This document shows positions 35,518 to 63,711 of a stretch of 64,000 bases of DNA, one piece after another (within the stretch, counting starts at the first letter, position 1; each line of letters starts with the position of its first letter). Below the pieces are notes generated by a model. The model was not told where the DNA came from. It made no database searches and was given only the letters and a program-made list of their open reading frames with translations. The stretch is from Pseudobythopirellula maris (lineage in GTDB: Bacteria; Planctomycetota; Planctomycetia; Pirellulales; Lacipirellulaceae). The stretch lies in contig NZ_SJPQ01000001.1 of assembly GCF_007859945.1 (NCBI RefSeq), positions 1,178,001 through 1,242,000 on the forward strand. The letters run 5' to 3'. A program made the translations under genes and the position numbers.

Positions 35518-35550
35518 AGCGGCAGCGATCCGACTCGGATCGCTGCCGCT
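35518..35550. terminator. Strong hairpin, possible terminator
   Basis: A perfect 15-bp inverted repeat pairs 35518-35532 with 35536-35550 around ACT. It lies 82 bp after the DUF1559 stop and 24 bp before the next start. There is no T tract, so it may be a processing or attenuation hairpin rather than a true terminator. Confidence 0.5.
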
Positions 35551-46325: not shown

Positions 46326-46610
46326 GGGATTCCCTCCGCGTGCAAGAACCGAAAACCGCTCCCAGAGCAACCTTTCTGAGAGTCGCCACACGAGCGAAGG
46401 CAGCGGCAGAGCAGCCGGGCCTGGTTGAGCAGGTGGGCGCCGCGTGGCCCCGCCCCGACATCGCATGACACCACCTACATCGCACAAAAGAGCCCGATTA
46501 TTGCCTCCATGCCGAAAGAACCGGCAATATCCGCGGTGAAAGCATAAAAAAAGCGACCCGGCGGGGGCGGGCCTCTGGCTGCGGAGCCGATGGCGAAGCC
46601 CCCAGCTTTT

Positions 46611-46678
46611 AGCAAGAGGACGCCGCCCTGGTGATTCGTCCAGGGGCTCCGCTTCGCTGCGACCCAGGACGCCCGGCG
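46611..46678 (+). repeat. 65-bp dispersed repeat, copy C
   Basis: AGCAAGAGGACGCCGCCCTG to GACGCCCGGCG; matches copy B along its length with scattered changes, several on both sides of potential stems. It lies 30 bp before the first palindrome. Confidence 0.65.
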
Positions 46679-46709
46679 TAAGGCGGCTACGAGGGCTAGG
46701 AGGCCTGAG

Positions 46710-46743
46710 GCTTATGCGGTAGTATATATACTACCGCATAAGC
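46710..46743. repeat. Palindrome P1 of array
   Basis: A perfect 34-bp palindrome centred between 46726 and 46727. The inner core is GTAGTATATATACTAC; the outer arms are GCTTATGCG and CGCATAAGC. Confidence 0.9.
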
Positions 46744-46829
46744 GTCTCGCCATCAATGAGGCGTGTTTCGCAAGTCTCTTCACCGAAAGGGTTTACGTCG
46801 ATTCTTTGCCGCTCTCAGCTTGACCAACA

Positions 46830-46863
46830 ACAGTGGCTGTAGTATATATACTACAGCCACTGT
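46830..46863. repeat. Palindrome P2 of array
   Basis: A perfect 34-bp palindrome with the same GTAGTATATATACTAC core but different arms (ACAGTGGCT / AGCCACTGT). Centre 120 bp from P1. Confidence 0.9.
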
Positions 46864-46905
46864 GCCTCAATGCGTTCTCGTTTTGGGTCGGGAAGAAACG
46901 CATTC

Positions 46906-46959
46906 GGACAGGAACGCAGCACCGGTAGTATATATACTACCGGTGCTGCGTTCCTGTCC
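46906..46959. repeat. Palindrome P3 of array, longest
   Basis: A perfect 54-bp palindrome: the same 16-bp core with 19-bp arms on each side (GGACAGGAACGC.. and ..GCGTTCCTGTCC). Centre 86 bp from P2. Confidence 0.92.
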
Positions 46960-46979
46960 CGATCCGGCATATCGTCGTC

Positions 46980-47013
46980 TACGTGGGCGTAGTATATATA
47001 CAACGCCCACGTA
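46980..47013. repeat. Palindrome P4 of array, one mismatch
   Basis: 34 bp, arms TACGTGGGC / GCCCACGTA. The core is GTAGTATATATACAAC, with a single mismatch at 47002. Centre 64 bp from P3; the right end is 104 bp before the AbiEi-like start. Confidence 0.88.
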
Positions 47014-47117
47014 CCCCACGAAACTCCAACAATGCCGCAAGTCGTTACCGATCCGTGACTTAAGCGACTACACGTCTAGCATTCGGGGTCCGAGCCACCC
47101 ACTACGCAGAGTTTTCA

Positions 47118-48008
47118 GTGCTGCTCTCCAAACAGAAGATTGCCGAGTCCTTCGACGGTGCCGAGGCCACAACAATCTGGCCACGTCAGTCCGTCCTTAA
47201 GTTCATCGAGGAGAACCGGCACGGATGGAAGATGGAAGACGGAGCACCGGACTGCATCCGGATCGCTTCCTCTGCGTCCAGTACTCAAATACTCAATGCG
47301 GTAGTGCGAGAAACATCACTCCAGTCCGTCAAACTGGCGTTCCCGTACCGCAGCGTTACACGGTTTGTCTGGGGCAACGCACCAACCTACAGCATCATCC
47401 AATCAGTGGACCAGCAAGGCTACTTCAGCCACTACACGGCAATGCAAGTCCACAACCTCACGGACCAAATCCCTAAGGCTGCTTACTTCAATGTCGAACA
47501 GCCTGCCACCGGTGGAGGAGGTTCGCTGTCACAAGCTGGGATAGATAGGGCGTTCAAAGGTAGATGTCGAGTCACCAACAACGTCCTTGAGTTCCGTGGC
47601 ATGACCATCCACAAGATCAATGGCCAGAACACAGAACGACTCGGAGTGACTCAGGCTCAAATGAAGGATGGGGCCGATATCTTCGTTACCGACATTGAGC
47701 GAACCTTAATCGACATCGCGGTGAGACCAATCTATTCCGGCGGTATTAGCGAAGTAGCTGGAGCCTATAGAGAGGCAGCAGAGCGAGTGTCTGGCAACCG
47801 GTTAGCAACTTATCTGAAATCACTCAACTACACGTATCCATACCACCAGGCCATCGGATACTACATGGAAAAGGCTGGGAACTACACCGAGTCCCAGATG
47901 AAACGCATCAAGGCAATTCCCAGAGAGTTTGACTTCTACATCAACTACCAAATCAAGAATCCAGCATTAAACGAGGGGTGGAGGCTATTCATCCCAAAGG
48001 GGTTCTAG
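47118..48008 (+). CDS. AbiEi-like antitoxin / transcriptional regulator
   Basis: 296 residues from a GTG at 47118; the ribosome site is weak and the start not certain. The middle and C-terminal parts show the AbiEi pattern: GYFSHYTAMQVHNLTDQIP (101-119), then the conserved TDIERTLIDI (191-200) with RPIYSGGISEVAGAY and a following helical region. The N-terminus may be a winged helix. In AbiE type IV toxin-antitoxin systems, AbiEi neutralises AbiEii and represses its own promoter by binding inverted repeats. Here the partner gene is on the opposite strand and overlaps by 24 bp at the 3' ends. Base composition is lower in GC than neighbouring genes, suggesting transfer. Four palindromes lie upstream. 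Confidence 0.8.
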   Translation: MLLSKQKIAESFDGAEATTIWPRQSVLKFIEENRHGWKMEDGAPDCIRIASSASSTQILNAVVRETSLQSVKLAFPYRSVTRFVWGNAPTYSIIQSVDQQGYFSHYTAMQVHNLTDQIPKAAYFNVEQPATGGGGSLSQAGIDRAFKGRCRVTNNVLEFRGMTIHKINGQNTERLGVTQAQMKDGADIFVTDIERTLIDIAVRPIYSGGISEVAGAYREAAERVSGNRLATYLKSLNYTYPYHQAIGYYMEKAGNYTESQMKRIKAIPREFDFYINYQIKNPALNEGWRLFIPKGF

Positions 48009-48866
48009 AACCTCACACTCATTACACAGCCAATCGAAGTAGAAATCAAAATCCTGCAAATCGTAGGTCGGGCTGACCGTATCTTTTACCGAGGCGAACG
48101 ACGTTTCATGTGCCTCCCGGTGCTCGCCAATTCTTCCAATTAGGGAAAGAGGCACCTTCTTCTGCTCAAAGGTTCTACGAATGATGTCGTGGAACCCACT
48201 TGAGGAAAAGTCGACTCCGTAGTGACTCACAATCACGTGAATGTCGACAAAATCACGAGCACGTGACGCAGGATCTCTCGTCCTATGAACCACTGGGGCG
48301 TATTCTGGCATTTGCTGGCAGATGGCCCGGATCTTCTCTGCTACGAACATTCGAGGTGAGTAACCGTTCACCGTGTATCCATCTATAACAAATTCTTCCT
48401 TGTCTTCGCAGAACTCGTGCCGGCTAAAATCAACCTTGAAGACCGGTGAGCCGTTGTAATTTACCGGAGTTGCAGAGCGGCGAAGCAGCTCCGGCGAATC
48501 GGCGGATTTGGCATACTTCTCTTCTTCTACCAGCTTGAACTCACAGGCGTAGCCGCCCCAGAAATCCTCTAGGTCTGCCGAAATCCTTGAGGGCTTCTTG
48601 GAGAACCTGAAATCGAGGAGCACGTACCCATCTGCCTTAAATGCCTTTGACAGGCACTGATTGATCTTCTTTCCGATCGATTCAGTATCTGTAAAGTCGC
48701 CATCGACTGAGATATCCACATCCTTAGACGCTCGATAGGAAATCTCGTAGGCGAATTGCAGCAGATTGCCACCTTTTAGCACAAGCTGGTCAGCCAAATC
48801 GTCGTCTCCCAGAATGGCGACGATCACCTTGCGTTTTACGTCATTGAAAAACTGCAACTGCTCCAT
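47985..48866 (-). CDS. AbiEii-like nucleotidyltransferase toxin
   Basis: 293 residues. The nucleotidyltransferase signature is VLKGGNLLQFAY (29-40), then RASKDVDISV (46-55) with metal-binding Asp49 and Asp51, as in AbiEii/DUF1814 toxins. It continues with the AbiEii-type segments VFKVDFSRHEF, YSPRMFVAEKIRAICQQ and RARDFVDIHVIV. Toxins of this group transfer nucleotides to RNA targets and arrest growth; the target here is unknown. The gene ends inside the convergent AbiEi-like gene (overlap 47985-48008), unlike the usual co-directional operon. Low GC, as in its partner. Confidence 0.85.
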   Translation of the reverse strand: MEQLQFFNDVKRKVIVAILGDDDLADQLVLKGGNLLQFAYEISYRASKDVDISVDGDFTDTESIGKKINQCLSKAFKADGYVLLDFRFSKKPSRISADLEDFWGGYACEFKLVEEEKYAKSADSPELLRRSATPVNYNGSPVFKVDFSRHEFCEDKEEFVIDGYTVNGYSPRMFVAEKIRAICQQMPEYAPVVHRTRDPASRARDFVDIHVIVSHYGVDFSSSGFHDIIRRTFEQKKVPLSLIGRIGEHREAHETSFASVKDTVSPTYDLQDFDFYFDWLCNECEVLEPLWDE

Positions 48867-48932
48867 TACGTGCTCCCAGCAGCGTCGGTTCTACACGGCG
48901 TCTTTGATCTCTCCCCATAGGGTTTCAATAAG

Positions 48933-48958
48933 TCGGCCTCCCCTTTCGGGGAGGGGAA
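48933..48958 (-). terminator. Hairpin between toxin gene and icd
   Basis: CCTCCCC / GGGGAGG arms around TTTCG just beyond the icd stop on the minus strand. There is no clean T tract; one of several CCTCCCC-type hairpins in the window (also near 25545 and 58960). Confidence 0.4.
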
Positions 48959-48998
48959 TATGAAGGCCCTCTCCCCTAAAATCCTGACCACTCACCCC

Positions 48999-50243
48999 TC
49001 ACATGTGCTTCACAATCGCCTGGCCGAACTCGCTGCATTTGACCAGCGTGGCGCCCTCCATCTGACGCTCGAAGTCGTACGTGACGGTTTTCGCGCCGAT
49101 GGCGCCGTTCAGGCCTTTGATGATCAGGTCGGCCGCCTCGGTCCAGCCGAGGTGGCGGAGCATCATCTCGCCCGACAGGATCACGGAGCCGGGGTTCACC
49201 TGGTCCTTGCCGGCGTACTTGGGCGCGGTGCCGTGCGTGGCCTCGAAGATGGCGTGGCCGGTGTCGTAGTTGATGTTGCCGCCCGGGGCGATTCCGATGC
49301 CGCCGACGCAGGCGGCCAGGGCGTCGGAGATGTAGTCGCCGTTGAGGTTCAGCGTGGCGAGCACGCTGTACTCGGCGGGGCGGGTGAGGATCTGCTGGAG
49401 CATCGCGTCGGCGATCACGTCCTTGATGACGATCTCATTGCCGGTCTTGGGGTTCTTGAGCGTGCACCAGGGGCCGCCGTCGAGCTCGGTGGCGCCGAAG
49501 TCGTTCTTCGCGCACTCGTAGCCCCAGTCGCGGAAGGCGCCCTCGGTGAACTTCATGATGTTCCCCTTGTGGACCAGCGTGACCGACGGCTTGTCGTTGT
49601 CGATCGCGTACTGGATGGACGCCTTCACGAGCCGGGCGGTCCCCTCTTGGCTGACGGGCTTGATGCCAAAGCCGGTCGTGCCAGGGAAGCGGACCTTCTT
49701 GAACCGCTCGGCGAAGTTCTCCTCGAAGAGCTTCTTGAACTTCTCGCAGTCGTCCGAGCCGTGCTCGAACTCGATGCCGGCGTAGATGTCTTCGCTGTTC
49801 TCACGGAAGATGACCATGTCGGTCAGTTCCGGCTGCTTGACGGGCGAGGGGACGCCGCTGAAGTACTGCACCGGGCGGAGGCAGGTGTATAGGTCAAGGA
49901 TTTGCCGCAGCGCGACGTTGAGCGAGCGGATGCCGCCGCCTACGGGCGTGGTGAGCGGGCCCTTGATGCCGACCAGGTACTGGCGGAAGGCGTCGAGCGT
50001 GGCGTCGGGGAGCCACTCGCCGGTTTCGTTGAACGCCTTCTCGCCGGCGAGGACCTCCATCCAGGCGATCTGCTTCTCGCCGCCGTAAGCCTTCTCCACC
50101 GCGGCGTCGAGCGTCGCCTGGCTGGCGCGCCAGATGTCGGGGCCGGTGCCGTCGCCTTCGATGAACGGGATGACGGGCGTGGAGGGAACTTGCAGTTGGC
50201 CGTCCTGCATGGTGATCGGTTGGCCGGTGGCGGCGGTTGCCAT
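48999..50243 (-). CDS. icd: NADP-dependent isocitrate dehydrogenase
   Basis: 414 residues, the size of the E. coli-type homodimeric enzyme, which converts isocitrate to 2-oxoglutarate in the TCA cycle with NADP+. Conserved: [12 protein letters not shown] (28-39), [20 protein letters not shown] with Ser107 at the substrate-binding and phosphorylation position, [32 protein letters not shown], and VTYDFERQM near the end. The Lys-Tyr in APKYAG and the Arg in FERQM match NADP specificity. No aceK is visible nearby, so control by phosphorylation cannot be inferred. Confidence 0.96.
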
Positions 50244-63510: not shown

Positions 63511-63711
63511 CCCCGGCTGCGGTTTGCGGCGCCCCATTTAGGTTATGCGAGCGGGTGGTCACCGCTTAAAATGCTGGGGGGCGTAATCCTTCATTAGCTG
63601 CCAAGTAGCATATAGACTGCAGGATTGAAGCCTCGCTTCCTCCTCTGCCCAGTGACCGGAGCCGCCGATTGCGCTCCTGCCCGTGGTACTCGCCTTGAGA
63701 AACCTGACTCG

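Follow-up and report, generated by a model that had tools for sequence, protein, structure and literature searches.

Palindromes with a common core and freely varying, self-complementary arms upstream of AbiEi-like genes: putative antitoxin operators that may also work as DNA hairpins

The window, i.e. the whole stretch of 64,000 nucleotides from Pseudobythopirellula maris that was analysed here, contains two convergent genes related to the AbiEi and AbiEii genes of AbiE toxin-antitoxin systems, and an array of four palindromes directly upstream of the first one. In window positions, the features are as follows.

46710..46743, no strand assigned: P1, a perfect palindrome of 34 bp centred at 46726/46727; folding energy as DNA -15.6 kcal/mol (mean of shuffled sequences -2.8)
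46830..46863, no strand assigned: palindrome P2, 34 bp, perfect; DNA fold -15.8 kcal/mol
46906..46959, no strand assigned: palindrome P3, 54 bp, perfect; DNA fold -32.8 kcal/mol
46980..47013, no strand assigned: palindrome P4, gene-proximal, 34 bp long with a single A/A mismatch in its core; DNA fold -14.0 kcal/mol
47118..48008, plus strand: AbiEi-like antitoxin gene, 296 aa, GTG start; N-terminal winged-helix-like and C-terminal AbiEi domain
47985..48866, minus strand: AbiEii-like nucleotidyltransferase toxin gene, 293 aa; convergent with the AbiEi-like gene, overlap of 24 nt

The AbiEi-like protein was matched by the PADLOC AbiEi model (E 5e-21) and by Pfam AbiEi_1 with 21.9 bits (E 2e-4), slightly below the cut-off of 22.2, while its profile reached solved relatives weakly by sequence (6y8q, E 0.08). 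Its predicted structure (pLDDT 94.7) aligned with 6y8q, AbiEi of S. agalactiae (Z 14.3, 185 residues aligned, 4.4 A), and with 1zel, Rv2827c (Z 13.8, 243 residues aligned, 4.5 A). Judged by this model, the protein has the fold of AbiEi antitoxins, with an N-terminal winged helix and a C-terminal AbiEi domain. The C-terminal part of the model (residues about 88-250, window 47379-47867) also aligns with nucleotidyltransferase folds, e.g. that of the MenT1 toxin (Z 10.3); a degenerate version of the toxin fold may thus be present within the antitoxin. The second protein is an AbiEii (DUF1814) nucleotidyltransferase with the GG and DxD residues: it was matched by Pfam AbiEii (E 1.2e-25), K31-G32-G33 and D49/D51 are invariant in 22 aligned rows, and its model (pLDDT 93.8) matches the fold of MenT3/TglT. 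NCBIfam models matched neither protein.

Rechecking of coordinates and pairing bore out the perfect palindromes P1 to P3 (34, 34, and 54 bp) and the single mismatched pair in P4, A46991/A47002, which lies within the core. The first-pass annotation had described one core common to all four; three of the copies have the 16-bp core in its exact form, and in P4 it is changed at one position. Folded as single-stranded DNA, each palindrome forms a single hairpin closed by a loop of 4 nt, with energies between -14.0 and -32.8 kcal/mol (shuffled means -2.8 to -6.1). Seven repeats with a stem score of at least 12 and a centre of 0-2 nt were detected in the window, four of them P1 to P4, compared to 0.0 in five block-shuffled windows; these shuffles, like those of the relatives' loci mentioned below, preserve single-base content only. 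The three further repeats, centred at 35533, 43383, and 54443, are GC-rich with arms of 13-16 bp and centres of 1-2 nt, and have no core in common. Allowing up to three mismatches, the core is found five times in the window (0.01 expected), the fifth match with three mismatches at 63605. In the whole 5.07-Mb genome, the core with up to two mismatches is present at four places, all within the one 304-bp array and not at random genomic positions, and the reversed control pattern gave no match. The outer 19 bases of the P3 arm occur in this genome only in P3 (up to two mismatches), and an origin of the arms as copies of other genomic sequence was therefore rejected.

The array and both genes are located in a low-GC stretch, as had been noted before: the GC content is 0.48-0.56 in 500-base steps from 46500 to 48999 and 0.59-0.72 across the rest of the region from 40 to 55 kb. 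A second low-GC stretch starts near 55.3 kb. P4 is separated by 104 bp from the GTG start at 47118. The centre-to-centre distances of 120, 86, and 64 bp are correct, but their shrinking toward the gene is not a rule, since among 27 rows with at least three repeats distances shrink in 15, grow in six, and do neither in six.

The exact 16-mer core was found in 117 stretches of a species-level genome collection, and 37 of these contain an AbiEi relative detected by tblastn. In these 37, the window, and L005, the array is located upstream of AbiEi. Defining repeats by a stem score of at least 12 and a centre of 0-2 nt, all 39 core-found loci (window included) have at least one repeat between -500 and +60 of AbiEi, and 35 have at least two. 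To reduce the circularity of this set, a protein search was added. Among 40 distinct additional loci found by protein, which are not fully independent (L143 is a near-copy of the core-found L022, and L169 a close relative of L020), 38 harbor at least one repeat in the same interval and 27 at least two. Repeats thus precede AbiEi in 77 of 79 distinct loci from several phyla, and the proposed linkage of the array to the AbiEi-like gene is confirmed, relatives having kept the palindromes. Rows from duplicate contigs were left out (L002-L004, L006-L012, L133, L135, and 11 of L164-L181). The two misses are L136, which remains negative, and L146, which is the same plasmid as L135 and carries an imperfect repeat. 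Five other loci considered as palindrome-less (L134, L140, L167, L173, and L175) were rejected as such, because their repeats have unpaired centres of 2 nt (1 nt in L175). L193, which was fetched later, has two repeats upstream of AbiEi. In L166, the AbiEi reading frame is interrupted by three stops, yet two palindromes are present before it (arms of 20 and 22 bp with two mismatches and one mismatch, respectively).

Such repeats were absent between -900 and +60 in all eight canonical AbiEi_3 plasmid loci inspected as a control, which were taken from 216 plasmid records and include two, L186 and L188, without an annotated AbiEii in the stretch. Canonical AbiEi_3 is rare in the phylum sample (1/149, L184), too few for a control, and L184 also lacks such a repeat. 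L084 (1-2083) harbors a canonical AbiEi_3/AbiEii pair beside a truncated hairpin-type AbiEi with two palindromes. Mononucleotide shuffles of the loci yielded 0.0 repeats per set, and in 34 convergent loci no repeat was found upstream of AbiEii.

The family is patchy and rare. Searching by protein, AbiEi relatives were detected in 12 of 392 genomes of the window's phylum, in 10 of 246 of its order, and in 2/299, 2/299, 5/132, and 3/149 genomes of the phyla of L022, L043, L013, and L065, respectively, counts that take in the window's or centre genome and some genomes already found by the core. Relatives were also detected in 38 plasmid records and one IMG/VR viral contig; 20 plasmid loci from 38-39 records were chosen for different organisms before palindromes were examined. 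According to record titles, the family extends over Planctomycetota, Zixibacteria, Binatota, Aminicenantes, Acidobacteriota, Bacillota, Bacteroidota, Campylobacterota, and Pseudomonadota. Among 81 rows (the 79 distinct loci plus L133 and L135), 64 gene pairs are convergent, five divergent, and one codirectional; 11 rows contain one gene only, one of them, L175, being codirectional when judged by reading frames. The co-directional bicistronic operon with the antitoxin gene first is absent from the window, and so is a spaced inverted-repeat pair with conserved half-sites, abutting palindromes with free outer arms being present instead. The window pair, a predicted toxin-antitoxin system, would work in the manner of AbiE autoregulation; because these two features of described AbiE loci, operon order and spaced repeat pair, are missing, we call it an AbiE-like variant. 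Type IV systems such as AbiE are characterised by toxin-antitoxin activity in which the two proteins make no contact.

Among the 117 core stretches, many of those without AbiEi have arms of only 0-3 bp. In 23 loci (L014, L018, L023, L030, and 19 more; two bins of one dive), the core with 3-bp arms is part of a repeated terminus ending GCAGGCCC near contig ends; one of the 23 is an alphaproteobacterial contig (L088). This terminus probably belongs to an insertion sequence and has no relation to AbiE. Core palindromes with longer arms are accompanied by a truncated AbiEi at the contig edge in L047 and L084, and in L050 and L087 the array is at the contig start, which may have cut off the AbiEi gene. 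Further core palindromes with longer arms and no AbiEi in the fetched DNA are those of L017, L019 (contig end), L025, L029, L038, L064, L081, L094, L108, L121, and L125.

Every GTAT-NN-ATAC within 600 bp upstream was collected with no condition on the arms, resulting in 165 sites from 70 loci (L143 was left out here, and also from the within-locus agreement and arm GC counts below). Half-positions 10, 11, 12, 13, and 14 are paired in 158, 157, 156, 156, and 148 of these sites, compared to 42-51 when right arms were shuffled, and all four Watson-Crick pair types are used; taking one site per locus (68 loci, true palindromes) gave an agreeing result. Beyond half-position 14 pairing declines, to 106/165 at 15 and 87/165 at 16, which sets the unit of the site at 28 bp; some copies have a longer tail. 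The paired outer bases show little or no conservation: in the core-exact set (n=140), the information of the left base is 0.14 bit at half-position 10, 0.02, 0.01, and 0.04 bit at 11-13, and 0.07 bit at 14, while some conservation is seen at half-positions 6-9 (1.07 to 0.35 bit). Loci found via the 16-mer are biased at half-positions 6-8, and the argument rests on 9-14 and on the protein-found loci. Copies within a locus agree by 0.85-0.87 at half-positions 1-5 and by 0.30-0.36 at 12-14, values conditioned on pairing since the repeat finder demands at least 12 net paired positions. A conserved centre with unconserved and yet paired arms, first noticed in the four copies of the window, is borne out across the 165 sites, and the arms covary among relatives. 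By eye, one pair has changed from G-C to T-A in step between L020 and L169, where L020 also has a mismatch at a pair intact in L169, and a compensatory change from C-G to T-A is visible between L153 and L154. As distant relatives keep a common centre with differing self-matching arms, the comparison suggests that the ability of the DNA to fold back, rather than its letters, has been preserved.

Deviations from this scheme are present. Nine of the 165 core sites are not palindromic, including both sites of L136, and in some Bacillota plasmids the arms are identical in all copies, as in an ordinary operator. Unpaired centres were found in 19 of 173 repeats (17 with 2 nt, two with 1 nt), and either orientation occurs (ac as well as gt, tt as well as aa). 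The core itself differs between lineages: GGTACGCGTACC in Hymenobacter, AGCGTTAACGCT in Paraburkholderia, and TCATATATGA in two flavobacterial plasmids. On the AbiEi tree, core types are clustered, with seven changes versus a shuffled mean of 9.9 (as low in 0/200), a result to which near-copies contribute; the most frequent core type does not form a single clade. Clustering is expected if AbiEi reads the core. Arms and flanks have the same GC content (0.406 vs 0.407, n=167), so there is no sign of selection for GC-rich or stable stems. Helical phasing of the spacing gave R 0.24 at 10.75 bp, with a p of 0.005 that is uncorrected for five periods and for related loci, and it is given no weight here.

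Promoters were predicted by consensus scoring with a general sigma-70 matrix in 16 loci hand-chosen for AT-richness. In nine of the 16, the best -10 is centred 8-12 bp to the left of the midpoint of the proximal palindrome and thus in its left arm, which places the predicted start near that midpoint; in the other seven it is elsewhere. AbiEi of S. agalactiae, a winged helix-turn-helix protein, represses its own promoter via inverted repeats near the start according to the available text of the report (PMC3985639).

From these data it appears somewhat more probable than not, at about 0.56, that the array consists of autoregulatory AbiEi operators which also work as DNA hairpins or cruciforms. 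At these sites the AbiEi-like antitoxin would bind its own promoter and the region ahead of it, a function favoured because the homologues AbiEi of S. agalactiae and Rv2827c bind promoter repeats. At each site, a lineage-specific core (here AGTAT-NN-ATACT) would be read by the antitoxin, while the arms have to pair and may have nearly any sequence. Since pairing of arms without a defined sequence should be unreadable in B-DNA, the site is probably a DNA hairpin or an extruded cruciform at some step, with some 12 bp of stem and a closing loop of about 4 nt. In AT-rich relatives, the predicted -10 and start tend to fall within the proximal site, so that binding or extrusion should shut off transcription of the antitoxin gene, additional sites tuning this repression. 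The toxin gene, on the opposite strand and with no such sites found before it, would be under separate control. Release might be triggered by a change in supercoiling, by single-stranded DNA, or by resolvase attack. Of the roles suggested by the first-pass annotation, that of operators is the best supported. Counting against operator hairpins are the equal GC content of arms and flanks, the non-palindromic core sites, the core mismatch in P4, the identical arms in some Bacillota plasmids, and the predicted -10 positions elsewhere in 7/16 loci. A bolder version, to be regarded as tentative and rather doubtful, is an operator class defined by self-complementarity of the DNA more than by its sequence, the antitoxin recognising an extruded hairpin with a sequence-specific tip.

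The palindromes could also be ordinary B-DNA operators in which AbiEi reads the core only, and template switching (quasipalindrome correction) would keep functionless arms complementary. This is the main alternative, if an unlikely one. Perfect stems reportedly arise and are maintained through template switching, as far as the available part of the source goes (PMC8794818), and arms at local GC would fit. Between L020 and L169, arms changed faster (9/32) than flanks (20/348) with an unaltered core (0/24; Fisher p 2e-4). Very long arms point in the same direction: the arms of the middle palindrome upstream of AbiEi in L069 extend at least 40 bp past the core and engulf the neighbouring palindromes, as though the entire stretch had been duplicated in inverted form, and one repeat reaches at least 60 bp per half. 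On the other hand, L022 and L143 show no arm excess (1/64 vs 3/293), and broken arms persist, in the degraded second site of L169 and in L136. The sharp limit at 14 bp per half and the repeats in nearly all loci of several phyla also speak against this alternative. Comparable palindromes are also rare elsewhere. Of the 795 kb in the fetched loci, 22.6 kb lie before AbiEi and contain 73 perfect palindromes of at least 28 bp; the remaining about 773 kb yielded 119 matches, of which 102 are N runs, 16 contain the core, and just one of the 17 real palindromes (L017) does not, a count resting on loci gathered by the core. As the arms change fast, stay paired, and are neutral in composition, template switching may well move them. 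The abrupt end of pairing at 14 bp per half, together with palindromes that are nearly universal in these loci and so scarce outside them, argues that pairing is also required.

Action of the palindromes in the transcript, as a structured leader, a toxin decoy, or an RNA antitoxin, is improbable. Any perfect palindrome yields an RNA hairpin too, and repeats before a toxin-antitoxin gene resemble the arrays of RNA antitoxins (type III-like), in which multiple repeats preceding a toxin-antitoxin gene are transcribed and stems tolerate G-U. An RNA stem on one strand should show this tolerance, but at half-positions 6-14 of all 165 sites nine G-T mismatches in the sense strand face 16 A-C mismatches. 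For the 156 sites with at least 7/9 paired, 35 mismatches were counted in 1,404 pairs: three G-T, nine A-C, and 23 others. Since G-T is no commoner than A-C and unpaired centres exist in either orientation, even within L167, the constraint looks like one at the DNA level, not on RNA, and the earlier suggestion of RNA hairpins is disfavoured. A -10 within the left arm, as predicted in the nine AT-rich loci, would result in a transcript lacking this arm and leans to DNA as well. Rfam identities were rejected for P3, as its seven matches are all miRNA hairpin models below the gathering score.

Very improbable are sites for single-stranded DNA in plasmid transfer, rolling-circle or phage replication, e.g. 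hairpins serving antitoxin expression or titration on entry. Relatives on plasmids (38 records, 20 fetched) and on the viral contig, and hairpins found before the antitoxin only (34 convergent loci), are in line with such a function, but no bias of G-T over A-C marks one strand. Recombinase genes are annotated near the AbiE-like pair in eight of the 20 plasmid loci (L143, L145, L147, L148, L149, L151, L155, and L157). With these genes and a 28-bp unit equal to dif in length, recombination or transposition sites (dif/Xer-like, attC-like, or REP-like) come to mind and are the least credible explanation, since dif/XerCD and attC sites have conserved arms or ends and a variable centre while here the centre is conserved and the ends are free, REP/RAYT elements are dispersed in many genomic copies while the four copies of this genome all precede one gene, and in 34 convergent loci no site was detected at the opposite end of the gene pair.

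What usually defines an operator is its sequence. In these arrays, the outer bases vary almost freely, and their pairing has been retained in several phyla at the level of DNA. If the hairpin is functional, the sites would be a DNA analogue of covarying RNA stems and a genetic handle on whether bacterial promoters use extruded DNA in vivo. If the extruded hairpin is real, a toxin-antitoxin switch sensitive to supercoiling, single-stranded DNA, or the Holliday-junction resolvases of phages that cut cruciforms would result, a DNA-shape tripwire upstream of an antitoxin gene. Should template switching be the cause, the arrays would document that process in nature at a site putatively bound by a protein. 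The array also marks a mostly convergent AbiE-like branch whose members in the window are unrecognised by NCBIfam models.

No description of convergent AbiE genes or of hairpin-type AbiEi operators was found in the literature searched, which comprised open-access journal articles. The papers cited for comparison are used as far as their available text extends. AbiE of S. agalactiae, a type IV toxin-antitoxin system of AbiEi and AbiEii, has related protein folds in common with the window pair. It is encoded by a co-directional bicistronic operon, whereas the genes of the window are convergent and overlap, and it has one pair of 11-bp repeats (extending to 23 bp) with 27 (3) bp between them, in contrast to the separate abutting palindromes with free arms (PMC3985639). 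Rv2827c/Rv2826c of M. tuberculosis is similar in having several repeats before the antitoxin gene and an AbiEi fold (1zel). These are four alignable 23-bp repeats in two pairs, with 13 bp within and 4 bp between pairs, and unlike the window palindromes they are not described as self-paired hairpins in the text available (PMC7319586). AbiE on ICESsuHN105 of Streptococcus suis is similar in that AbiEi binds two palindromic promoter sequences, IR1 and IR2. It differs in that AbiEi binds a sequence like these at oriT as well, and free pairing arms are not described in the accessible part (PMC11062541). Template-switch hairpins share perfect stems of changing sequence with the arrays and differ in belonging to RNA genes, with no conserved protein-linked core (PMC8794818). 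RepD/oriD of pC221, a rolling-circle origin, differs in being a site of replication without an antitoxin, and according to the text available it resembles the operators proposed here in that a protein acts at a structure of the DNA tied to supercoiling and cruciform extrusion (PMC5775427).
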